NCBI GenBank assembly: GCA_016926955.1
Contig: JAFGNN010000029.1
Span: 1-52,481 of the forward strand
Direction of reading: 5' to 3'
Source of the DNA: Spirochaetales bacterium
GTDB taxonomy: Bacteria; Spirochaetota; Spirochaetia; Treponematales; UBA12059
Length of the DNA stretch: 52,481 bases
Part shown: piece by piece, positions 3,773-18,296 of the stretch
Layout of the letters: every line of letters begins with the position of its first letter
Numbering within the stretch: position 1 is the first letter of the stretch
The notes under the pieces: generated by a model
Seen by the model: the letters and a program-made list of their open reading frames with translations, nothing else
Database searches by the model: none
What the model was told of the DNA's origin: nothing
Program-made: the position numbers and the translations under genes

Positions 3773-5017
3773 TCACGAGTGGTCCGCGAGGCGGGACCTC
3801 AACAAGTCACCGAGCCTCCGAGAGTGGTCGTCGTCAGGGTTTATTGACTGGGCCGCGTCGCAGTCGGCCAGGGCGCGCGGATAGTCGGCGAGGTGGAAGA
3901 ACGCTTGTGCCCTGCGCATCAACGAATAGAAGTGGTAGGGATGGATGTCCAGGGCACGGTCGAAATCGACTATGGCCTCTGCATACCGGGCGCGGATGGA
4001 ATGGATCACGCCGCGGTAGTACGCGGACTTGTAGCAGCGCGGATCGAGCTCGAGGGCCTTCGAGAAATCCTCGAGGCTCTCGTCGTAGCGCGACTCCGAG
4101 AAGTACGCCATGGCTCGATGCTTGAGGATAACGGCCCGGGCCTCCTGGCGCGTGTCGTGTGCGAGTATCCGGGAATAGAGGTCGATCGCCCTCAGGTAAT
4201 CGCCCCGGTTGTGGGCTGCCAGCGCCGCCAGCAGCATGTCGTCGGAGCTGGCGTACTCGCGCAGGTAGTCGAGGTCGGCCTTCGGCGCGACTGGAGCGGG
4301 CGGCGCGATATCGGAGAAGAAGGGCAGGTCGATGGCCTGTTCGATCTTGCGGTAAAAGGCCCCGCGACGGCGCGCAAGCTCGTCCGAGAGCTGGTGCTGG
4401 TAATCGCGGATCTCCTGGAAGATGATGTCGGAAAGCGTAAGGTTGGCGTTCAGGGCTGCGAGTTTGCGGCGCATCGGCTCGTCGAACGGGGTGAATTCCG
4501 CCTTGTAGACGAGCTCGTGCTCCACCTCCGCCCAGGCTTCCTGGAGTATGGTGCGGATCTGCACCTCTACGACCTCGGCTTCCAGCGACGGTGCGTCCTC
4601 GCGGAGGTCTTTCGGAATCTCCACGAGCAGGTGGATCGACTCGTAGCCGAACTCTCGGAATGAGCGCTCGGCGCCCTTGCGCTCCACTTCTACCACCCGG
4701 AAGGCCCGGCCGAGCTCCTCCTCGACCTTTGCCAGGTCGCCGATGAACGGGCACACAAAACGGACGCCGAGCAGGTCCGTAAGCGGTATGGGGCTTCTGC
4801 CCGAGGCCCTTGCTTGCTGGTAAAGGCGGATGCGTTTCTTGAAATAGCTTGGAAAGGACTTTACCCGGGCTTTCACGCCCGGTCTCAAGCCGGAATCCTC
4901 GAGCACCTTCCGCATCCGGGCGGCCATGGCCTGGACGACGGCCTCCCTGTCCGCGAGCGAGGATCGCCATGCTTCCTCGAGCTCGAGACGATTCAAAGCC
5001 GGTTCAGTCGTCTCCAT
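3773..5017 (-). CDS. RelA/SpoT-domain (alarmone synthetase-like) protein with C-terminal TPR repeats
   Basis: 414 residues. The N-terminal half (about 25-235) is a RelA/SpoT nucleotidyltransferase domain: ARVKSFPSYFKKR (50-62), TDLLGVRFVC (80-89), FGYESIHLLVE (123-133), EVQIRT (151-156) and AEVEHELVYK (163-172) correspond to the ATP/GTP-binding and catalytic motifs of (p)ppGpp synthetases. There is no HD hydrolase domain and no TGS/ACT region, so it is a synthetase-only type. Residues about 255-400 form three or four TPR repeats, probably for protein binding. I infer (p)ppGpp or pGpp synthesis controlled by a partner. No ribosome-binding site precedes the ATG; instead a promoter ends eight bases before it (5026-5054), suggesting a leaderless mRNA. 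Confidence 0.88.
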   Translation of the reverse strand: METTEPALNRLELEEAWRSSLADREAVVQAMAARMRKVLEDSGLRPGVKARVKSFPSYFKKRIRLYQQARASGRSPIPLTDLLGVRFVCPFIGDLAKVEEELGRAFRVVEVERKGAERSFREFGYESIHLLVEIPKDLREDAPSLEAEVVEVQIRTILQEAWAEVEHELVYKAEFTPFDEPMRRKLAALNANLTLSDIIFQEIRDYQHQLSDELARRRGAFYRKIEQAIDLPFFSDIAPPAPVAPKADLDYLREYASSDDMLLAALAAHNRGDYLRAIDLYSRILAHDTRQEARAVILKHRAMAYFSESRYDESLEDFSKALELDPRCYKSAYYRGVIHSIRARYAEAIVDFDRALDIHPYHFYSLMRRAQAFFHLADYPRALADCDAAQSINPDDDHSRRLGDLLRSRLADHS

Positions 5018-5094: not shown

Positions 5095-5126
5095 AAAAAA
5101 AAGCCGCCCCGATTGGGGCGGCTTTC
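5095..5126 (-). terminator. rho-independent terminator of flaA
   Basis: Perfect 11-bp stem AAAGCCGCCCC (5101-5111) / GGGGCGGCTTT (5116-5126) with loop GATT; on the minus strand it runs into a nine-base U tract. It lies 17 bases past the flaA stop. Confidence 0.93.
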
Positions 5127-5142: not shown

Positions 5143-6189
5143 TTACTCGGTTCCTGTGGTTTCCGAGGTGAACTCGGTCTTCGGTTCCTGCTTCAGCCTC
5201 TCAAGGTAACGGAGGACCTGCGACTCGCCGAAGCGCCGGCTCTCGATGAGCTTGCGGTCCGCTTCGCGCTTGTCGTTGATGCCCCAGACGGCCTCGTCGT
5301 CGATGTCGCGCACCGGGTCGAGTACGGCTTTGTCGTAGAGGATCTTGACGTCCTTGATGTAGGTGATGAAATCGCCGCCTTCATGGGCCGCATCGCGGGT
5401 GATGAGGATGCCGGCTAGCTTCACGAAGGGGGAGGACTTCGGGTAGAGCGGGAACAGGCGAAGTTCGCGGTTGCGGACGTCGCTCACGTACGCCGGGTTG
5501 TCCCAGCGAAGTTCCTTCCAGCCGTCGAAGTTCAGGTAACCCATGAACATCGTCGTCTGCTTCCCTTCCTGGTCCTCGAGGATGAGGGAGATGCCGTGGG
5601 GGAAGTTCATGCCGCGGACGGTGACGGCGAGCGACTTGATGACGCCCACGTTCTTCACGATGCCCATGGCGGTGGTGATCTTGGTGTCCGCGTTGAAGGT
5701 TCCCTCGAAGCGGGTCAGCCGATCGTTGACCGGGTCCGTACCGCCCGCCTCTTTCCGCTCGAAGGCGGGAATCGAGAAGGGAGGGGTCACCATGGCCCAG
5801 CTGTTGAAGGTTTCCGTGGGGAAATGGACCCGGATGCCCATGACCGTCTTGCCCGTGTAGGCTCCGCCGACTACGGGGGCCTCCCGGGTGTAGGACAGGG
5901 CCTGGTTGAAGTTGGTCCGCGAGGACGAAGCGAGGGTGATGTCCCAGTTGCCGATGGCGAGGCTGGTGGCCATCTGCTTCTTCTGGTCCTCGGTGTAGCT
6001 GGCGCCGGCGGTGGTGGAGAAATCCATCACGGTCGCGCCGTTGTCGAGGAACTGACCGGCGTTGAGCGGATCCTCGTTCGTGTCGGCCTTGAGGAGCGAG
6101 AAGTCCATCAGGACCGCCTCGTCCGCGAAAACCGAAAGCGTCCCGAGGAGCAGCACGAGCGTCGCCGCTATAAAGACCTTCCTTGTCAT
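5143..6189 (-). CDS. flaA: periplasmic flagellar filament outer layer (sheath) protein FlaA
   Basis: 348 residues, with a signal peptide (MTRKVF, hydrophobic core, cleavage after VFA near residue 22) and then a secreted domain characteristic of spirochete FlaA: VLMDFSLL near the mature N-terminus, SWAMVTPPFSIP, and the block KSLAVTVRGMNFPHGISLIL followed by GYLNFDGWKELRW. FlaA coats the FlaB core of the periplasmic flagella and is exported by Sec, unlike FlaB. The ATG at 6189 starts the signal peptide and has AAAGGAG (6198-6204) eight bases upstream. A near-perfect consensus promoter and a strong terminator make it a single, highly expressed gene. Its place after a run of sugar-modification genes suggests that the latter may act on flagella or envelope. 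Confidence 0.93.
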   Translation of the reverse strand: MTRKVFIAATLVLLLGTLSVFADEAVLMDFSLLKADTNEDPLNAGQFLDNGATVMDFSTTAGASYTEDQKKQMATSLAIGNWDITLASSSRTNFNQALSYTREAPVVGGAYTGKTVMGIRVHFPTETFNSWAMVTPPFSIPAFERKEAGGTDPVNDRLTRFEGTFNADTKITTAMGIVKNVGVIKSLAVTVRGMNFPHGISLILEDQEGKQTTMFMGYLNFDGWKELRWDNPAYVSDVRNRELRLFPLYPKSSPFVKLAGILITRDAAHEGGDFITYIKDVKILYDKAVLDPVRDIDDEAVWGINDKREADRKLIESRRFGESQVLRYLERLKQEPKTEFTSETTGTE

Positions 6190-6221
6190 ACTCTGAACTC
6201 CTTTCTGTAAGGCGGTCGATG

Positions 6222-6235
6222 AGCCGAATTCGGCT
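6222..6235. promoter_or_regulatory. 14-bp palindrome at the flaA transcription start
   Basis: AGCCGAATTCGGCT is a perfect palindrome immediately downstream of the flaA -10 box, covering the expected start (about 6232). It could be an operator or, at the RNA 5' end, a short stabilising hairpin. Confidence 0.45.
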
Positions 6236-6238
6236 ACA

Positions 6239-6266
6239 ATTATATTCGGGCGAATAGCCTTGTCAA
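6239..6266 (-). promoter_or_regulatory. flaA promoter (consensus sigma-70 type)
   Basis: Both hexamers are perfect: TTGACA (6261-6266) and TATAAT (6239-6244), separated by 16 bases on the minus strand. The promoter sits just past the stop of the GerMN gene, so flaA is transcribed independently of the upstream operon. It is a housekeeping-type, not a sigma-28-type, promoter. Confidence 0.88.
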
Positions 6267-6272
6267 ATACTT

Positions 6273-6776
6273 TCATTTTTTTTGCTCGTCCGCGCCGCCG
6301 AAAGGCACCTGTCCCCCGATTGTAAGGAGGATGCCGTCGAGGCCCGGCTCGGCCATGGCCATGACGCGCCGCGCGGCGTACAGGGCGCGACGGATGGGCG
6401 CACCCCCTTCCCCGAGGGCCCCTTCGTCCAGGTCGATCCGGAGCACCTCGTCCCGGAGCAACACGGCGTCTACCCTGGTACCGGGGGCGAAGAGCGGGGC
6501 CAGGTCCGGATCGGACGGACCGAGCAGCAACTCGGCCATGGTTTCCGCCGCTTCGGCCTCCGGTTCGCGGGACGGCAGGGCGCGGAGCTCGCCGACCAGG
6601 CGGCCGTCCGTCGCGCGGGGGAAGAGCAGGACTACGGGGCGGCGGGCGCCCTCCGCGACCCAGGAGGCCAGGGCGATGGCGACAAGGATGGCGAGCAGCG
6701 CGGTGCGGTACACTCGGGCCCGGCCGAGGGCGGCGACGGGGGCCGATGCCAGGATGCGGTCTAAAAAGTCGTTCAT
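6273..6776 (-). CDS. GerMN-domain membrane-anchored protein
   Basis: 167 residues: a short cytoplasmic N-terminus, one membrane segment (about 25-42), then an extracytoplasmic GerMN domain (about 48-158) with the family's hydrophobic strand pattern (VVLLFP, ELRALP, MAELLLGP, VLRIDLDEGAL, LDGILLTIGG). GerMN domains occur in envelope and spore-germination proteins and are thought to bind peptidoglycan or partner proteins. Its ATG overlaps the stop of the amidase gene by four bases (ATGA), so the two are translationally coupled and probably work together on the cell wall. Confidence 0.82.
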   Translation of the reverse strand: MNDFLDRILASAPVAALGRARVYRTALLAILVAIALASWVAEGARRPVVLLFPRATDGRLVGELRALPSREPEAEAAETMAELLLGPSDPDLAPLFAPGTRVDAVLLRDEVLRIDLDEGALGEGGAPIRRALYAARRVMAMAEPGLDGILLTIGGQVPFGGADEQKK

Positions 6777-7864
6777 GGCGCGGATGTTCCCTTGCGGTTC
6801 TCGAAATAGTCTATGAAATCGACAATGCCATTATAGACGGCGTCCGAGATGCTCCGCAAGTGAGCGGGATCCGCCAGAAGGCGCGCCTCGGCCTCGTTCG
6901 TCACGAACCCCATCTCGACGAGTACGCTGGGCATGCGGGCGTTTCGCACCACGAACCACTCCTCGGCGCGGATGCCGCGGTTGCGGGAGCTTGCGCCGAT
7001 GTTCCGCTCCAGCCGTTCCACGATGGACCGCGCGAGCAGGACGCTCTCGGTGGTGTACTCCTCTTCCATCATGACGTTCACGATCGGAGCGATCTCGTCG
7101 TCCACGCCCGGGGTGCCTGACTCGACGAGGGTTCGGCGATAGTCGGGATTCAGGTACCAGACCTCGAATCCGGAGGCGTTGCGGTTGAAGGACGCGTTCG
7201 CGTGGATGGAGACGTAGATTATCGCCTCGTTGGGCCGTAGCTCGACGGCGTTGGCCATCTCGACGCGCTCCTCCAGGCTCGGATAGGTGTCCGCCTCGCG
7301 CGAAAGCATGATCCGCCGATCCGGGAAGCGCTCGACCAGGGCGTCCCGCACCTGAAGCGCCGTCGCGAGCGCGAGATCCTTCTCGAGGATCTTCCGCTTG
7401 TCCTTGCCGCTTCCGTATTCGCCGACAGCGCCCGGATCCTTGCCGCCATGGCCCGGGTCGATCAGCACGGCCGCGACGCGGAACCGGGAAAGCCGCTCGG
7501 TGCTCCGCTCTTCGAACCATGCCGAGAGGTAGGCGGCGGTGGTTCCATCGAGCAAGGGACCTCCGGGCCCCGAGCTCGACGGGGTCAGCCGGACGGGGCG
7601 ATCGCCGAGCAGGTGCCAGGGGGAACCGGGCTTGAAAGCCGCCCGGTCTCCGTCTCGGGTCAAGGAGACGGTTCCGAGCAACGGATCGAGCGACAGGACG
7701 GCACCGAGCTCGGACGCGAAATCGGCAACGCGCACGGGCGCTCCCGCGGCGGACGGAACCTGGGCGTCCGCGGCCCTGGTTCCCGCGAAGGCCGCGGCGA
7801 GCGTGAGGCAGACAAGGAGGGCCGAATCGGGTCTTCCGCCGCGGCGCTTTGCGAGGGAGCTCAT
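6773..7864 (-). CDS. N-acetylmuramoyl-L-alanine amidase (Amidase_3)
   Basis: 363 residues. An N-terminal signal or anchor (about 15-34) is followed by an uncharacterised domain and a C-terminal zinc amidase domain (about 130-355). Zinc ligands and catalytic residues are visible: the His of LIDPGHGGKDPG (about 135-146), a Glu in ILEKDLAL, the His of YVSIHANA (about 217-224) and the Glu of VLVEMGFVTN. The enzyme cleaves the bond between MurNAc and the stem peptide in the periplasm, for cell separation or for letting envelope structures pass. It lies four bases after the ATP-grasp gene and overlaps the GerMN gene. Confidence 0.93.
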   Translation of the reverse strand: MSSLAKRRGGRPDSALLVCLTLAAAFAGTRAADAQVPSAAGAPVRVADFASELGAVLSLDPLLGTVSLTRDGDRAAFKPGSPWHLLGDRPVRLTPSSSGPGGPLLDGTTAAYLSAWFEERSTERLSRFRVAAVLIDPGHGGKDPGAVGEYGSGKDKRKILEKDLALATALQVRDALVERFPDRRIMLSREADTYPSLEERVEMANAVELRPNEAIIYVSIHANASFNRNASGFEVWYLNPDYRRTLVESGTPGVDDEIAPIVNVMMEEEYTTESVLLARSIVERLERNIGASSRNRGIRAEEWFVVRNARMPSVLVEMGFVTNEAEARLLADPAHLRSISDAVYNGIVDFIDYFENRKGTSAP

Positions 7865-7868
7865 CGCC

Positions 7869-9458
7869 TCATCCTGCCCTGATCGCGCGTTCCGTGTCCA
7901 CGACGTAGAGGGCTGCCTGCCAGCCGCCCCGCTCGAGGGCCTGCCAGAATCGTCCGGCGAGAGCCGCTTCCCCGGGCCTTGCGGGGCGCGTGCCCGAAAG
8001 ACGTTCGACGATTTCGATCGACTCCGAGAGCGGCCTTCCGAGCCAGTCGGGCGAAGCGAGCGCGTCCGCGGAAAGCGGCAAAGGGAGGTAGGGAAGCGCC
8101 GCGCCGCGTTCCGGCTCCGCTCCGTCCGCTTCGGCGGGCAAGGCCGCGACGGTTTCCAGGAACTCCGCGGGCGCCGAGCCGTAGGCGTGCGGCGGCCAGG
8201 TCCGGCCGTCTGGCAGGTTGATCGAGCCTGCGCCTTCGAGAAAACCCTCCGTCGCGGCGTTCCGGGGCTCGAGTATGGGCAGGAGGCTGCGGGCGGCCCG
8301 TTCCGCGGCTTCGATCGCCGTTGTGCGGTCGGGCGCCTGGCTTATGACGTTCCCTCCCTTCTCCACGTTATTCGAGGGGAACACCGCCCGCGCCCCCGGT
8401 CCGAGGCGCAGGAACACATCCTTGACGAAGGGCTCGAGCTTCGCCTCGCGCTCTCCGTCGAGCCGGGCGACCGTGCCGGGTATGGAGATGAAAGCCCGTT
8501 CCGCGGAGACCCAGGCGCGGCGAGGCGCCAGGTCGCCCGGGGGGAGCCCCACGGCCACCCGCAAGGCCGCCAGGGTAGGCTCGGCGCCGGAAGCGTACGG
8601 ATAGGTCCAGCCGGACATGTAGCCGCCGGAGAGCCGCGCCGCGATCTCGCCGACCACCGCCCCGCGTTTTCCCAGCTTGATGTCGCCTTTGGCGGCTCCG
8701 GGGCCGAGGCCGAGGGCGCGCACGCCGAGCTTGAAGACGCGCACCACCTCGCCGACCGCCTCGGGAGGGAACGCGCTCGGCATGGTGTGCCCGAGCTCCA
8801 CGAAGAATGGCGCGAAGGCGATATGGCGGTCGGCTACGCCGCAGAGCTCGACCCGGCCGTCGGACACGATGGCGTCGATCGAAAACTCCGGGCCTTCGAT
8901 GTATTCCTCGACGATCGCGCGTCCCGCGCGTGAGGATCGCAAGGCATCCGCGATGGCCGGGCCGTATTCACCGGGGGCGGCCACGAGCCGGCACCCTCGG
9001 GCGCCCATGTTGTCGACGGGCTTGACCACGAGGGGGAAGCCGATGCGTTCCGCCGCGAGGGTCGCGTCCTCGCCGGCTCCGACGGTAACGAAACGGGGCG
9101 ACGGGACTCCCGCGGCGGCGAAGCGCTCCCGCATCCTGCCCTTGTCGCTCGCGTCGAGGGCCGTTGCGTGGGGAATGCCGGGAAGCCCGAGGCGCTCCGC
9201 TATCCAGGCGACGTTCGCAGAAAAATCGGTACCGGCGGTGAATACGCCATCCAACCCACCCGCAGCTCGAAGCCCGCGGGCGGCGGCCTCGAGCGCGTCG
9301 CGGTCCTTGAGGTCCACATGGAGGAATTCGTCCGCGATTCCCGCGCCGGCGGCGGCGGCGTCCCCGTCGGCCACCGCGACGCGCCATCCCTGCTCCCGGG
9401 CGAGACGGATTGCGGGCATTTGCATGACGCCGGCGCCAAGGATCATGATGCGCTTCAC
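7869..9458 (-). CDS. ATP-grasp domain ligase-like protein of the glycan-modification cluster
   Basis: 529 residues. The N-terminus KRIMILGAGVMQMPAIRLA is the Rossmann-like preATP-grasp fold; the ATP-grasp core follows with FPLVVKPVDNMGARGC, AIVEEYIEGPEFSID and, at the metal site, GDIKLGKRGAVVGEIAARLS. A further C-terminal extension of about 150 residues is unrecognised. ATP-grasp enzymes form C-N or C-O bonds through an acyl phosphate; here the likely substrate is an amino acid, carboxylate or sugar acid being attached to the product of the neighbouring genes (inference). The start is a GTG at 9458, which overlaps the upstream stop (GTGA), and it begins exactly at the domain. Confidence 0.85.
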   Translation of the reverse strand: MKRIMILGAGVMQMPAIRLAREQGWRVAVADGDAAAAGAGIADEFLHVDLKDRDALEAAARGLRAAGGLDGVFTAGTDFSANVAWIAERLGLPGIPHATALDASDKGRMRERFAAAGVPSPRFVTVGAGEDATLAAERIGFPLVVKPVDNMGARGCRLVAAPGEYGPAIADALRSSRAGRAIVEEYIEGPEFSIDAIVSDGRVELCGVADRHIAFAPFFVELGHTMPSAFPPEAVGEVVRVFKLGVRALGLGPGAAKGDIKLGKRGAVVGEIAARLSGGYMSGWTYPYASGAEPTLAALRVAVGLPPGDLAPRRAWVSAERAFISIPGTVARLDGEREAKLEPFVKDVFLRLGPGARAVFPSNNVEKGGNVISQAPDRTTAIEAAERAARSLLPILEPRNAATEGFLEGAGSINLPDGRTWPPHAYGSAPAEFLETVAALPAEADGAEPERGAALPYLPLPLSADALASPDWLGRPLSESIEIVERLSGTRPARPGEAALAGRFWQALERGGWQAALYVVDTERAIRAG

Positions 9459-11245
9459 GTCGCTGTTCCTTTCGGCGCCAGGCGCCGGGCGTAGATCTCG
9501 AAAGTGTCGCCGAGACGGAAGAACCGGCTCGCCGTTCCGCGCAAGGAACGGATCCAGCCGGGATCCCCCTCCCTGGCGCCGGGAAAGCGTTCGGGATGGT
9601 GCCCCGTGGATCGCACGAGCTCGACGCGGAAACCGAAGCGGGCGAGCAGGCGGGCGGCGCGCTCCGGCTCCCACACGCTCAGGTGGTCGTAGGGACTCGC
9701 GGCAAGGAAGGCGCGCCTGTCCTTGCGCGCGCTGATTCCGGACCCGGAAGGGGTGGACAGGGCCAGGACGCCGCCCGGCGAGAGCAGGCGGGCGGCCCGC
9801 TCGAGCACTGCTCCGAGCTCCGAGAAATGCTCGACGACATACCACATGGACACGCAGTCCAGACCGTCGGGCACCAGGTCGTCAATGAGCGGATCCTGGA
9901 AGTCGGCGACCATGGCCGGCAGGCGGAGCGTGTCCCTCACATGCGCGACAGCGTCCCCGGCAAGGTCGAGTCCGTACGATTCCCATTCGCGTCGCGAAGC
10001 CTCGGAAACGAAGGCGCCGTAGGCGCAACCGACGTCGAGGAGCTTCCTGCCCTTCCCCGCCGCCGCGGGCACCAGGCGATCGATGCGATCGAGCCGCTCC
10101 GCGGCCAGCGCGGTCAGGACCGGCCAGTCCTCGAGGTAGGTACGGCCGTACTGGGCGCGGTACTCCTCGAAGAAGTAGTCCTTGCCGTAACGGCCCGGTC
10201 GGTCGGCGAATCCTTCCATATAGAGAAGACCGCATCCCCGACAGCGGAAATAGCTCCGGTCCGGAAAGCGCTCGATGTCGCTCCGTGAGGGCGAGGAACA
10301 AGCCGGACAACGGCCGCTCGCCTTCGATTGGAGCGAACCCAAGGCCTCCGCGAGGCTCTCGCGCGAAGGTGGCGCGGGCCTCGCCGAGGCTTCAGCGAAG
10401 GCGGGCAGGTCTTCGAGCAGGGCGGACAGGGCTTTGGTCTCCGGCTCCCGGGTGCCGATGGAGGGGAAGCCGGCCTCTCGCGAGAGCGCGGCATGATAGG
10501 CAGAGGGGTCCAGGACCGCCACGAGGCACCCGGCCCAGGACGCCTCGAAGGCGGTGAGCCCGAACGAGGTGAACACGAGGTCCCATGAGGACAGGTGTTC
10601 CTTGAGGTTCTGGACCGGGCCGAGAACGGCGATGCCTTCGGGGATCGTTTCGCGGGAGGCGCCGGGTCGGCTGAGGGCGCCGGAGACCAAGGTGAGGCGC
10701 GACGGCTCGAAAAAACCTCTTTCCACCAGGAAGCGCGCGAGCTTCGGGCCCAAGCCGGCGGGATCCTCCCCGCCGAACGCGAGGAGGGCCTTCCTCGCGG
10801 ACTTCGCGGCCTGCCGGCGGTGGACGGGCAGGTCGAGGTATCCGCGCGAGGACAGGTTCGGTCCCGGTTCTGTACGGCGCGCGGGCGGCAGGGGAAGGGC
10901 GTCGACGAGATAGGGCGCCGCCCGGCGCGCTGCGCCGCCTTCGTCGAGGGCGACGACCGGACCGCGATGGAGCCAGGTTTCGAGCTCCTCGGCCGAGGTG
11001 TCGCGCCGATCGAGCAATACGAGGTCGAAGCGCTCGTCCGCTCCGAGCTTGTCGAGCACGATGTCGTCGGCGGCTCCCGGAAAGGCCAGGGTGATCTCGG
11101 CGGCGCTCCAGGAAGCGCCCTCGCTCCCGCGCGAAACGTAGACACGGGCGCCGGGACCCAGTTCCCGCGCGAGCGAGAGGCAGCGGACCAAGTGGCCCGA
11201 GCCGTTGCCCCGCCTGACCGAAGGGACGAGCAGCACGCGCTTCAA
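9455..11245 (-). CDS. fusion of SpsG/PseG-like glycosyl hydrolase-transferase and zinc-ribbon SAM methyltransferase
   Basis: 596 residues. Residues 1-310 resemble SpsG/PseG (GT-B fold UDP-sugar hydrolase or transferase): the N-terminal GSGHLVRCLSLARELG signature (15-30) and SSWDLVFTSFGLTAFEASWAG. Then come two zinc-ribbon cysteine pairs, CPAC (313-316) and CRGC (335-338), and a class I methyltransferase with motif I LLDVGCAYGAF (402-412), followed by WYVVEHFSEL. Zinc-ribbon methyltransferases of this shape act in sugar modification. I infer that the protein takes a nucleotide-activated sugar and methylates it or a related product. The start is taken as TTG at 11245, four bases after the spsF-like stop; GTG at 11236 is an alternative. 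Confidence 0.82.
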   Translation of the reverse strand: MKRVLLVPSVRRGNGSGHLVRCLSLARELGPGARVYVSRGSEGASWSAAEITLAFPGAADDIVLDKLGADERFDLVLLDRRDTSAEELETWLHRGPVVALDEGGAARRAAPYLVDALPLPPARRTEPGPNLSSRGYLDLPVHRRQAAKSARKALLAFGGEDPAGLGPKLARFLVERGFFEPSRLTLVSGALSRPGASRETIPEGIAVLGPVQNLKEHLSSWDLVFTSFGLTAFEASWAGCLVAVLDPSAYHAALSREAGFPSIGTREPETKALSALLEDLPAFAEASARPAPPSRESLAEALGSLQSKASGRCPACSSPSRSDIERFPDRSYFRCRGCGLLYMEGFADRPGRYGKDYFFEEYRAQYGRTYLEDWPVLTALAAERLDRIDRLVPAAAGKGRKLLDVGCAYGAFVSEASRREWESYGLDLAGDAVAHVRDTLRLPAMVADFQDPLIDDLVPDGLDCVSMWYVVEHFSELGAVLERAARLLSPGGVLALSTPSGSGISARKDRRAFLAASPYDHLSVWEPERAARLLARFGFRVELVRSTGHHPERFPGAREGDPGWIRSLRGTASRFFRLGDTFEIYARRLAPKGTAT

Positions 11246-11249
11246 ATCG

Positions 11250-11954
11250 TCACTCCGCGGTCCAAGGCTGGACGAGCGACCAGTCGCCTGATTCAAGCGC
11301 CTTGAGGGCCGCGACCAGAACGCGGGTCGAAGGGTCGAATCCTGCTTCATGCGCGAGGTCGAGGGCGCGTTCGTAGTCGCCCGCGGTGTCCACGGTGACG
11401 CGTCCAGCCGGATAACGGCACTCCTGCGGCGCTGCTTCACGCCTCACGCGGAAGCGCTCCGGCCTCCGGTAGAGGAAGGGACAGACGTGCTCGCGCTCGT
11501 AAGGATCGACGGCTTCGGCGTCTGCCGCGAGCAGGGCGGCCGCCCGCGCGGCCTCGACGCCAAGGCCGAGCGGCATTCCCTCCAAGGCGGCGTAGTCGAG
11601 GTCGGATTCGACGGCGAGGTCGGACGCCAGCGAGGCGAGCTCAGGCGAGACGAAGGGGTTGTCGGCCGTCGCGCGTATCACGCGCTCGAGCGAGAATTTC
11701 CGTATGGCCAGCGCGAAGCGCGCGAGCACGTCTTCCTTCGGCCCCGGCACGAGCTCGAAGCCCGCGCGGGCGGCGAGCGGCTCGAAGACCCGGGCGGAGG
11801 CTTCGTCGCAAGCGAGGATGCGCACGCTCGCGGCCACCCGGGAGAGCCGTCGCATGCAGGCTTCCACCATGGGCACGCCGCCGAAGGGAAGCAGCGCCTT
11901 GCGCGGCAGGCGGCTCGAGTCGAGACGGGCCTGGAGTATGACGCCGAGCCTCAT
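11250..11954 (-). CDS. SpsF-like cytidylyltransferase family protein
   Basis: 234 residues, the usual length for the SpsF/NeuA-like family. MRLGVILQARLDSSRLPRKAL at the N-terminus is the nucleotide-binding signature (QARxxSxRLP.K), followed by GGVPMVEACMRRL and, at the metal site, RVIRATADNPFVSPEL. Such enzymes activate acidic or deoxy sugars as CMP-sugars for surface or flagellar glycans. The ATG overlaps the stop of the glycosyltransferase gene by four bases. Together with the SpsG-like fusion downstream it supports a pathway to an unusual sugar. Confidence 0.87.
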   Translation of the reverse strand: MRLGVILQARLDSSRLPRKALLPFGGVPMVEACMRRLSRVAASVRILACDEASARVFEPLAARAGFELVPGPKEDVLARFALAIRKFSLERVIRATADNPFVSPELASLASDLAVESDLDYAALEGMPLGLGVEAARAAALLAADAEAVDPYEREHVCPFLYRRPERFRVRREAAPQECRYPAGRVTVDTAGDYERALDLAHEAGFDPSTRVLVAALKALESGDWSLVQPWTAE

Positions 11955-12910
11955 GGGATCGGCTCCCAAAGATCGACGAGGGCCCGGGCGTCGACGCGGA
12001 ACCGGAAGGCGTTGTCCGCGACCCAGGCGCGCGCGGCCTTGAATTCCCGGTACGCCTCGCCGATGCCCACACCCGCGCCCGCGGCGTAGGGCAGGAAGCG
12101 CGACCATGGCAGATGGGCCGCGTCGGAGCGGCGCACCGGGGCCAGGCTGCGCAGATGGAAACGCCGGTAATCGGGACCGGGGCTCGTGTCGTACGCTGGC
12201 GGCGCTTCTACGTAATCCACGCGCAGCGCCTGGGCCGATCCGAGGAGCTCGCCGCGGAGCCAGGCGCGAAAGCCGAATTCGACGAGCTGCCACCAAGGCC
12301 GGGAGTATTCCCGGTCGAATCCGCCGAGCGCCTCGAAACGGGCTTTCGAGTAGACGCCCGCGTAGTCGAGCGGAAACAATGCTTTCTCCCCGTCCTCGCG
12401 GGGCTCGAGGCTCAAAACCCGGAGGGCGCTTCCTTCGAGGGCGGGCGCTCCGATGGCCGGAAGCGTCTCGCCGTCCCGGGCTCGGTACCAGGGCGTCGCG
12501 CAGAGCCAGGCGCGCTCCTCGATCCGGTCGACGAAGCGCGACGAAAGTCCGCCCGCCGCCAGCTTCTGGTCGTTCCAGAGCAACAGGACCCAGGGCATGC
12601 GCGCCTCGCGGAACCCGATGTTGGCACGCTCCCCGGGCGTCAGGCCCGCGGGAACCACCGCGAAGCGCGTCGAGGGGAAGCGCGAGACGAGCGCCTCCAG
12701 CTCGTGCCGTCCCTCGCCACCTTCTTCCACCGACACCACCTCCGCGAAGCCGGCGCGTTCCAGGTCCTGAAGCTGGCGGGCGCGGTATATCCGCCCTCCG
12801 CGGTTAAGCACGACCACGGAGATCCTCGAGGCGGGAGCGGGGCGGCCGCCGCTGCCGATGACGGTGTAGGCGGCCAGGGACGGATCAGGCGTTCCAGGTG
12901 TGGTATTCAT
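11951..12910 (-). CDS. glycosyltransferase family 2-like protein
   Basis: 319 residues. SRISVVVLNRGGRIYRARQL near the N-terminus and MPWVLLLWNDQKLAAG in the middle (a DxD-like region reading NDQ) suggest a GT-A-fold family 2 glycosyltransferase. WWQLVEFGFRAWLRG is typical of the acceptor half. The DxD motif is not canonical, so catalysis is uncertain. The ATG at 12910 lies inside the end of the spiro-SPASM gene (26-base overlap), and the 3' end overlaps the spsF-like gene by four bases. It probably adds or modifies a sugar in the same pathway. Confidence 0.7.
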   Translation of the reverse strand: MNTTPGTPDPSLAAYTVIGSGGRPAPASRISVVVLNRGGRIYRARQLQDLERAGFAEVVSVEEGGEGRHELEALVSRFPSTRFAVVPAGLTPGERANIGFREARMPWVLLLWNDQKLAAGGLSSRFVDRIEERAWLCATPWYRARDGETLPAIGAPALEGSALRVLSLEPREDGEKALFPLDYAGVYSKARFEALGGFDREYSRPWWQLVEFGFRAWLRGELLGSAQALRVDYVEAPPAYDTSPGPDYRRFHLRSLAPVRRSDAAHLPWSRFLPYAAGAGVGIGEAYREFKAARAWVADNAFRFRVDARALVDLWEPIP

Positions 12911-14414
12911 CGCAACGCTCGCAGATGGCGGGAAGCTTCCGCTCGACGTGGGCGCGCCAGGCGGCTTCGCCCTTGGCCCAGATAGCTTCGAGGGCATCCT
13001 CGAACACGTTTCCGAGCGGCGCCGATTCCGGGCAGGCGCCGGGTGCCAGGACCTCGCGACACATCAGGACAGAGCCGTCGAGGACGACGACCAGGTCGCG
13101 TGCCAGATGCCTGCAGGGAAGGCGCCGCAGGGGCGCGAGATCGGAGACGGTCCGGTCCGGCAGGCGGCCCGCGAAGGCGTCGTACTTCTGGATGATCACG
13201 TCGAGTCCCTTCTCCTTCCAGCCGCGCCAGAAGGACTCGAGGTGGAGCTCATTCTCGCGCATCCGCACGGCCTGCGCGTGCACGCGGCCGGGGAAGATGG
13301 AGCCGAGCCGTTCCGCGAAGGCGACAGCCTCGGCAAATCCGGGGCCGCGCAGGGACGCGTACGCGTCCGCTTCCGTCTCGTCGAGCGATACTATCCAGTC
13401 GATCCGGCCGGAATCCGCGTGTCGTTCCGCGATGCCCTCGACCACGCCCGGTCGCCAGCCTGCGCCCGAGGTCTCCACGATGAGCGAGAGCCGCGGCCGC
13501 GACAGGACCGATTCCGCAAGGGCGCCGAAATCGGGGTGCAGGGCGGGTTCGCCCCAGAGCGAGAGATCCACCACGGCGTCTCCCGAGAATTCGGCGACCT
13601 TTTCCATGAACGCGTCGAACCGTGAGGCTTCCATGAAGTCCCTCCGGGCCGTGACGTCGCCGCCGAAGCCCGGGTACGGGCAGTACGCGCAAGCGTGCGG
13701 ACAGGCGCCGGAAACCTGCACGTGGATGAAGGCCGGCCGGTTGCGGAGCACTTCCTCATGCGCCGGGAGCAGGTCCTGCACCGACTCGGCCGACACGATC
13801 CCGACGGCGGCGAGTCGGGCCGAAGCCTCGAAGTCTCGACGCGTGTCGCAGACCGCCCTGAAGCGCCAGGGCCTGAGATCGACGCGGGAGATCTCGGTCT
13901 CGACGTCGAAGGAATTGATGTCCTTCTGTACGGTCAGGAAGAGCGCGTCGCGCGAGAAGGGCAACTTCTCGCGGGAAGCGATGGCGGAGAGGGCCATGAG
14001 GATGCGCGGCTTCACGAATTCCGCCGTGAAGCCCTCCGGCCAGCCGTCGGCGAAGAGATACTCGGCCTTCCAGCGCTCGAAGGAGGCGGCCATGGCCGAC
14101 GCGAAGGCTCCGTCCAGGAAGGGCTGGTCGCCGAACGCGTGCACGAGGAGGCCTGGGGCGCCGGTAGCCATCGGATCGCCCGCGATGGCGCCGAGAGCCT
14201 CGATGAAGGCCGGGACGTCCCAGGAGGCTCGGCGCACGAGCTCGTAGTCGCCCGGCGGCGGTTCGAGCCCGGACGCGAGCACGACGACCCGCTCGAGGCC
14301 GGGCAGGGAACGAAGCGCCGCGAGCGAGCGCTCGAACGCTGAAGGGCCTCCGGCGAAAGGCTCGAAGGCGAGGCCCGTGGCGGGCACGAGGTCGAGAACC
14401 GCGACTGTCTTCAT
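12885..14414 (-). CDS. spiro-SPASM radical SAM protein with nucleotidyltransferase-like N-terminal domain
   Basis: 509 residues. The radical SAM cluster motif CPHACAYC (238-245) has CxxxCxxC spacing; the C-terminus (about 420-509) carries a SPASM region with cysteines in CRHL, LMCREVLAPGAC and CERC for an extra Fe-S cluster. This matches the spiro-SPASM family known from spirochetes. The first 200 residues are not radical SAM: AFERSLAALRSLPGLERVVV, FGDQPFLD and the late DINSFDVETEIS block look like a sugar nucleotidyltransferase (SpsF/IspD-like GT-A) fold. I infer a two-function enzyme modifying a sugar or peptide at the head of the glycan pathway. The start is ATG at 14414 with TAGGAG five bases upstream. 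Substrate is unknown. Confidence 0.87.
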   Translation of the reverse strand: MKTVAVLDLVPATGLAFEPFAGGPSAFERSLAALRSLPGLERVVVLASGLEPPPGDYELVRRASWDVPAFIEALGAIAGDPMATGAPGLLVHAFGDQPFLDGAFASAMAASFERWKAEYLFADGWPEGFTAEFVKPRILMALSAIASREKLPFSRDALFLTVQKDINSFDVETEISRVDLRPWRFRAVCDTRRDFEASARLAAVGIVSAESVQDLLPAHEEVLRNRPAFIHVQVSGACPHACAYCPYPGFGGDVTARRDFMEASRFDAFMEKVAEFSGDAVVDLSLWGEPALHPDFGALAESVLSRPRLSLIVETSGAGWRPGVVEGIAERHADSGRIDWIVSLDETEADAYASLRGPGFAEAVAFAERLGSIFPGRVHAQAVRMRENELHLESFWRGWKEKGLDVIIQKYDAFAGRLPDRTVSDLAPLRRLPCRHLARDLVVVLDGSVLMCREVLAPGACPESAPLGNVFEDALEAIWAKGEAAWRAHVERKLPAICERCDEYHTWNA

Positions 14415-14674: not shown

Positions 14675-14694
14675 TACCACCACCCATAGTGGTA
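14675..14694. promoter_or_regulatory. inverted repeat in the nrdJ leader (operator or hairpin)
   Basis: TACCAC (14675-14680) and GTGGTA (14689-14694) flank eight bases, about ten bases after the predicted transcription start. It is in a position suited to a repressor site. It does not match the NrdR box I know. Confidence 0.4.
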
Positions 14695-14747
14695 CCCCAC
14701 CAAGACAACCAGCGCGGCGTGCGACGCCGCTTGAAGCGGAGGACGGC

Positions 14748-18296
<3,549 letters not shown>

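Follow-up and report, generated by a model that had tools for sequence, protein, structure and literature searches.

A conserved spirochete gene cluster that probably supplies the activation and tailoring steps of a flagellin nonulosonic acid pathway

The window analysed here, a stretch of 52,481 nucleotides making up positions 1 to 52,481 of contig JAFGNN010000029.1 from a Spirochaetales bacterium (assembly GCA_016926955.1), carries on its minus strand, from position 14414 down to 5143, a run of eight genes that leads from a spiro-SPASM radical S-adenosylmethionine (SAM) protein to the flagellar sheath gene flaA. The first five of these genes (14414-7869) probably encode the second half of the pathway by which spirochetes attach a nonulosonic acid (NulO) to their flagellin, together with its tailoring enzymes. 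The system is best read as one of a known kind, Maf-dependent NulO flagellin glycosylation resembling the sps and pse pathways, with this locus as its conserved activation and tailoring part. From sequence comparisons, a role in flagellar sugar modification is well supported because the gene order is conserved, the genes co-occur with Maf transferases, and acceptor motifs are retained in the flagellin FlaB. The cluster points to the genes that build an unusual sialic-acid-like flagellar sugar, including in the agent of syphilis and its oral relative. An initial annotation of this DNA had proposed a sugar modification of flagella or the envelope; the flagellar part is borne out, while an envelope target is disfavoured for the reasons given below.

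Every gene of the sugar-modification set named in that annotation is present and correctly placed, with family matches or fold to support each. In order, these are the spiro-SPASM protein (12885..14414, 509 amino acids), a GT-A-fold glycosyltransferase-like protein (11951..12910, 319 amino acids), SpsF (11250..11954, 234 amino acids), a fusion of an SpsG/PseG-like domain to a class I SAM methyltransferase (9455..11245, 596 amino acids, TTG start) and an ATP-grasp carboxylate-amine ligase of the L-amino-acid-ligase type (7869..9458, 529 amino acids, GTG start), followed by genes for an amidase, a GerMN protein and FlaA. From the spiro-SPASM gene through the GerMN gene, each neighbouring pair overlaps or lies no more than 4 nt apart. 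The annotation had named conservation of this order across spirochetes as a check, and the outcome is clear. Neighbourhoods were compared in 60 spirochete genomes and in a second, independently fetched named collection of 80 loci, with separate profiles built for SpsF, the SpsG/PseG-like domain and the methyltransferase. Of the 36 loci from Spirochaetia, the class of the window, 28 show the complete eight-gene order, spread over nine families; in the independent collection 48 of 80 loci do so, and most of the others are interrupted by contig ends. The gene order is kept far beyond chance. The closest relatives of the window are uncultured Spirochaetes metagenome-assembled genomes, and Breznakiella homolactica (Treponematales) is the nearest named cultured relative among the matches listed.

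Two further genomes, of 1,139,633 bp (G056) and 2,843,201 bp (G165), are those which we take to be Treponema pallidum and Treponema denticola, respectively. The T. pallidum label agrees with published gene merges and annotations (PMC3265458, PMC5951579). In both species the spiro-SPASM, glycosyltransferase-like, SpsF and SpsG-methyltransferase genes stay together, with the last two fused, and the ligase gene is located elsewhere; in T. pallidum the amidase, GerMN and FlaA genes are linked to one another, away from the sugar genes. The fusion of SpsF, SpsG and methyltransferase into one protein of about 860 residues recurs in many treponemes (L040:5413-8001 (+), L037, L039 and others), and by the Rosetta-stone argument this places them in one pathway. 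Outside the class, mostly only the spiro-SPASM, SpsF and SpsG/PseG-like genes remain linked. These linkage patterns suggest that the first four genes form a sugar module, that the ligase is a partner able to sit elsewhere, and that the amidase, GerMN and flaA genes form a neighbouring module.

The connection to flagellin comes from two sources. First, Maf is present in 56 of 56 genomes with a spiro-SPASM protein over the cut-off and absent from 45 of 46 complete spiro-SPASM-negative genomes, the remaining one giving a weak 49-bit match. Fisher's test gives a p of ~4e-28 when genomes are counted and of 3e-4 when families are; with only three negative families, the second value is the honest one. 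Of the negatives, 31 are Borreliaceae-like (f6) and, as judged by PF00669, flagellated; the other 15 belong to f12 (Sphaerochaetaceae-like) and f9 and have no flagellin. We infer these family names. Borreliaceae keep their flagellin and have neither Maf nor spiro-SPASM, and those tested also lack NeuB and the ligase. Second, the reported glycosylation targets of T. denticola FlaB are VEVSQL and DRIAS (PMC7431986). The FlaBs of the window's own genome, of T. pallidum and T. denticola and of further genomes with Maf keep both motifs; the small changes in them leave both serines in place. The f6 FlaBs (4/4) carry IEIEQL/NRIAD-like residues at these motifs. The absence of the gene set suggests why the Borreliaceae acceptor sites are changed.

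An envelope polysaccharide, lipid or lipoprotein could be the target instead of flagellin, as the Amidase_3 and GerMN genes within the same cluster might suggest and as the Bacillus SpsF/SpsG-type proteins, which serve spore-coat legionaminic acid, illustrate (PMC7439481). This is unlikely. Sphaerochaetaceae and Borreliaceae have an envelope yet lack the spiro-SPASM protein, and those tested lack the ligase; the presence of the genes follows Maf, and the T. pallidum amidase-GerMN-FlaA group stands apart from the sugar genes. In addition, NeuB and SpsF occur in one f12 genome (G227) that has no Maf, no spiro-SPASM protein and no strong ligase match; having a NulO pathway is thus not enough to bring the last two along.

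The genome to which the window belongs is 98% complete. The initial annotation had held that the set lacks its synthase and dehydratase, and this is contradicted by the genome search. Elsewhere in the genome lie one full-length NeuB/SpsE-like synthase (NeuB and SAF domains, G000:C68), whose best solved relative is SpsE (1vli), a PseB-like dehydratase (PF02719, 358 bits) adjoining a PseC-like aminotransferase (TIGR03588, 341 bits, cut-off 423.5), three Maf (PF01973) matches and FlaB genes. T. pallidum has the same synthase, adjacent PseB/PseC-like pair and Maf sets and, although its genome measures only 1.1 Mb, has kept everything in the set; T. denticola has one full-length NeuB. No PseH match over the cut-off was found in 18 genomes, the best in the window's genome scoring 34.7 bits and T. 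pallidum giving no match whatever. For this reason we do not class the locus as a canonical pseudaminic pathway, and the PseH/SpsD acetyltransferase may be replaced by the ATP-grasp ligase.

Known systems frame this gene content. The legionaminic acid pathway of Bacillus subtilis runs through SpsM-SpsC-SpsD-SpsG-SpsE-SpsF (PMC7439481). For its SpsG, SpsF, SpsE synthase and dehydratase/aminotransferase pair the spirochete set has candidates. In contrast, the spirochete genes are dispersed, no SpsD-type acetyltransferase has been identified among them, and a radical SAM protein, an ATP-grasp ligase, a methyltransferase and a glycosyltransferase-like protein are extra; the likely target here is flagellin, whereas in B. 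subtilis it is the spore crust. Compared with the PseB/C/H/G/I/F and Maf systems of Campylobacter, Helicobacter and Aeromonas, candidates for the dehydratase, aminotransferase, PseG-like protein, synthase, CMP-transferase (CMP, cytidine monophosphate) and Maf are all present here, although all fall under the equivalog cut-offs, PseH is not found and an extra tailoring module is conserved alongside.

Within the locus, SpsF (PF02348, CTP_transf_3, E 5e-28) is the sole gene of its family in the window's genome, two relatives, T. denticola and T. pallidum, and its best solved relative is the cytidylyltransferase 6oew (E 1.6e-19). With a single copy per genome, it is by elimination the candidate CMP-nonulosonate synthetase. 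The neighbouring fusion protein divides into an SpsG/PseG-like domain (residues ~1-365), which ends in a four-cysteine motif resembling a zinc ribbon, and the methyltransferase (~366-596; Methyltransf_23, E 1e-19). The first domain has an invariant G15-x-G17-H18-x-x-R21 and C313/C316/C335/C338 and a weak match to the PseG model TIGR03590, which falls weakly in this domain in several genomes. At an E-value of 0.001 no match to the PseG model was obtained in the window's own genome or that of T. pallidum, and the domain was recognised by motif and locus search. The glycosyltransferase-like protein has no Pfam or NCBIfam match. Its structural model (pLDDT 91.9) shows a GT-A fold with ppGalNAc-transferases as the best Foldseek match (E 6e-12, TM ~0.6), a likeness of fold only; residues W112, D114, D199, W207-Q208, D211 and E221 are conserved and there is no canonical DxD motif. 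From the model, it would be a glycosyltransferase-like partner.

The ATP-grasp ligase is over the cut-off for ATP-grasp_4 (PF13535, E 1.2e-12) and LAL_C2 (PF18603, E 2e-11), and its best solved relatives are the L-amino acid ligases BL00235 and BacD. A dedicated family for it, scoring at least 330 bits, is found in 42 of 42 spiro-SPASM-positive genomes and in 0 of 7 negatives tested. Outside the class the ligase is fused to a flavin mononucleotide (FMN) alpha-hydroxy-acid dehydrogenase domain (PF01070) at L091:10724-12991 (-), L220, L222, L223, L225 and L229, and this fusion fits a hydroxy-acid substrate. FMN_dh was also considered as a universal partner of the pathway and set aside: the fusion occurs only outside the class, T. 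pallidum has a separate gene, and the window's genome has a weak match only. In T. pallidum, the fused SpsF-SpsG-methyltransferase gene is closely followed by those of this FMN_dh protein (L040:8926-9807 (+)) and of a HAD phosphatase. No functional study of this ATP-grasp family was found in the literature searchable.

The spiro-SPASM protein scores 480 bits against TIGR04321, above the curated cut-off of 250, and also matches Radical_SAM and SPASM; no TIGR04321 match over the cut-off was found in 14 control genomes outside the spirochetes. Its model (pLDDT 94) has two domains, a cytidylyltransferase-like one from residue 1 to ~220/231 and a radical SAM/SPASM one at ~223/225-507. The N-terminal domain matches the Leptospira cytidylyltransferase 6oew in structure (Z 20.9) and is homologous to SpsF itself (hhalign E 3.6e-11). 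The basic loop RLDSSRLPRK is missing from it, however, and because of this loss it is probably not a working CMP transferase. The C-terminal part matches SuiB (Z 23.8) and BtrN (Z 21.0), among others, in structure, and by sequence its closest solved relative is BtrN (E 3e-10); its CxxxCxxC motif (C238, C242, C245) is conserved, and Cys 434, 452, 498 and 501 are invariant. With BtrN, DesII and BlsE, radical SAM enzymes that act on sugars or nucleotides, it shares the radical SAM and SPASM/twitch fold, from which it is set apart by the additional cytidylyltransferase-like domain. A search of the literature available to us yielded no functional study of TIGR04321 or of the T. pallidum locus.

Taken together, a route can be proposed in which the PseB/PseC-like pair would form a uridine diphosphate (UDP)-4-amino-4,6-dideoxy sugar, from which the SpsG domain would release UDP (the PseG step), and the SpsE/NeuB-like enzyme would condense the amino sugar to a nine-carbon acid. 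SpsF would then make the CMP-activated donor, and Maf transferases would place the NulO on FlaB. In place of the canonical acetyltransferase step, the ATP-grasp ligase would attach an extended N-acyl group through an amide bond, and the methyltransferase would O-methylate this group. A nucleotide-bound sugar or a sugar acid is the probable substrate of the radical SAM protein, which would dehydrogenate or deoxygenate it.

Such a product may have a counterpart. The T. denticola glycan described by Kurniyati (2017, cited in PMC9481697) is reportedly a pseudaminic-configured NulO that bears an N5-acetyl group and, on N7, a 2-methoxy-4,5,6-trihydroxyhexanoyl group. For this structure (5-acetylated pseudaminic acid, Pse5Ac, plus the N7 acyl) the computed residue mass is 450.185, a consistency check that other compositions could also fit. 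Such an acyl group requires that a hydroxy acid be joined in an amide and O-methylated, steps for which the ligase and the methyltransferase could serve. It also lacks a 3-OH, and a radical SAM enzyme of the BtrN/DesII type could carry out the deoxygenation required. T. denticola FlaBs bear a 450.2-Da glycan that is essential for filament assembly (PMC9481697). This species has the spiro-SPASM protein, the glycosyltransferase-like protein, the fused SpsF-SpsG-methyltransferase and the ligase, and the FlaBs of the window's genome share its glycosylation motifs; a similar glycan may be made here. The earlier suggestion of an undescribed modification is thus doubtful: the T. denticola glycan has been described, and it is its assignment to genes that seemingly has not, as none was found in the literature searchable.

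It could be argued that the first five genes do belong to a NulO pathway, but that the ligase, methyltransferase and radical SAM protein build something other than an N-acyl extension, for instance a sugar tagged with an aminoacyl group or a peptide, or a change to flagellin itself. The nearest relatives of the ligase are L-amino acid ligases, peptides are frequent substrates of SPASM enzymes, and SuiB leads the structural matches of the spiro-SPASM protein. We consider this doubtful, although less so than an envelope target, since the sequence-closest solved radical SAM enzyme is BtrN, a sugar-alcohol dehydrogenase, the spiro-SPASM protein bears a nucleotidyltransferase-like domain, the mass of 450.185 agrees with an acyl extension to which a methyltransferase and an amide ligase would contribute, and the FMN_dh fusion accords with a hydroxy acid.

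Several observations weigh against the NulO assignment itself. The source organism is represented by a metagenome-assembled genome. The PseB, PseC and NeuB relatives score under the NCBIfam equivalog cut-offs, the synthase under those of PseI and NeuB, so the product could be pseudaminic, legionaminic or another acid, and a PDB profile search with the SpsG/PseG-like domain recovered no PseG structure. Outside the class, the methyltransferase and the glycosyltransferase-like gene are unlinked from the spiro-SPASM, SpsF and SpsG/PseG-like core in most lineages. The absences behind the Maf association are confined to three families (f6, f9 and f12), so the independent events are few. Finally, the T. 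denticola structure reportedly holds no further sugar, leaving the glycosyltransferase-like protein unexplained.

More tentatively, the proposed scheme might extend to the phylum. Spirochetes would share a NulO route in which N-acylation from acetyl-CoA is replaced by an ATP-grasp ligase attaching a custom hydroxy/methoxy sugar acid, and this acid would be shaped by the radical SAM protein, with its inactivated cytidylyltransferase domain as substrate holder. Capping would be lineage-specific: in Spirochaetia by the methyltransferase, and in other lineages by the fused FMN alpha-hydroxy-acid dehydrogenase. With these poorly annotated genes placed in a single pathway, the biosynthesis of an unusual flagellar glycan becomes testable gene by gene, and substrate hypotheses are at hand for radical SAM family TIGR04321 and for the ATP-grasp family.

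The last three genes of the run look like a neighbouring, separately promoted flagellum and envelope module. They encode an N-acetylmuramoyl-L-alanine amidase (Amidase_3; 6773..7864; PF01520, E 2e-48), a GerMN (Germane) domain protein (6273..6776; PF10646, E 3e-6) and the sheath protein FlaA (5143..6189; PF04620, E 5e-72, 243 bits). The true start of flaA is at 6189, not 6276, which leaves a gap of 83 nt after the GerMN gene. Inside this gap sits a perfect sigma-70 promoter on the same strand (TTGACA-N16-TATAAT, 6266-6239, 12/12 consensus matches), and an intrinsic terminator (5100..5125, minus strand) with an 11-bp perfect stem and a T run lies 3' of the gene. Of 48 loci, 44 have this promoter, 26 of them in perfect form, and the corresponding figure for inner coding segments is 0.4%; in T. 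pallidum it is one position short of perfect. A conserved sigma-70 promoter upstream of the spiro-SPASM gene was sought and not clearly found. The conserved promoter and the separation in T. pallidum suggest that flaA belongs with the amidase and GerMN genes, and flaA probably has a transcript to itself, with read-through possible. The statement that the set ends at flaA thus stands as gene order; as a single transcript it is weakened by the promoter.

The linkage might instead reflect a true functional operon, with the glycan needed on or for the FlaA sheath. The adjacency of flaA is preserved across nine families, and the T. denticola flaA shares a transcript with four open reading frames upstream of it (PMC9481697). 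We nevertheless regard this as very unlikely, given the promoter of its own in 44/48 loci and in T. pallidum, the distance of the T. pallidum sugar genes from flaA, and the title of Wyss (1998), as listed among the references of PMC13144727, according to which the sheath proteins are not glycosylated. Two more FlaA-family genes stand side by side elsewhere in the window's genome (G000:C59:9398-10646).

Directly downstream of flaA lies a gene for a RelA/SpoT-domain protein with tetratricopeptide (TPR) repeats (3773-5017, minus strand), a position kept in many Treponematales loci. At the other end, a gene that by eye resembles ribonucleotide reductase (14748-18296, plus strand) diverges from the spiro-SPASM gene. 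No riboswitch was found between the two by Rfam; a short inverted repeat, TACCAC...GTGGTA, lies there near 14675-14695.

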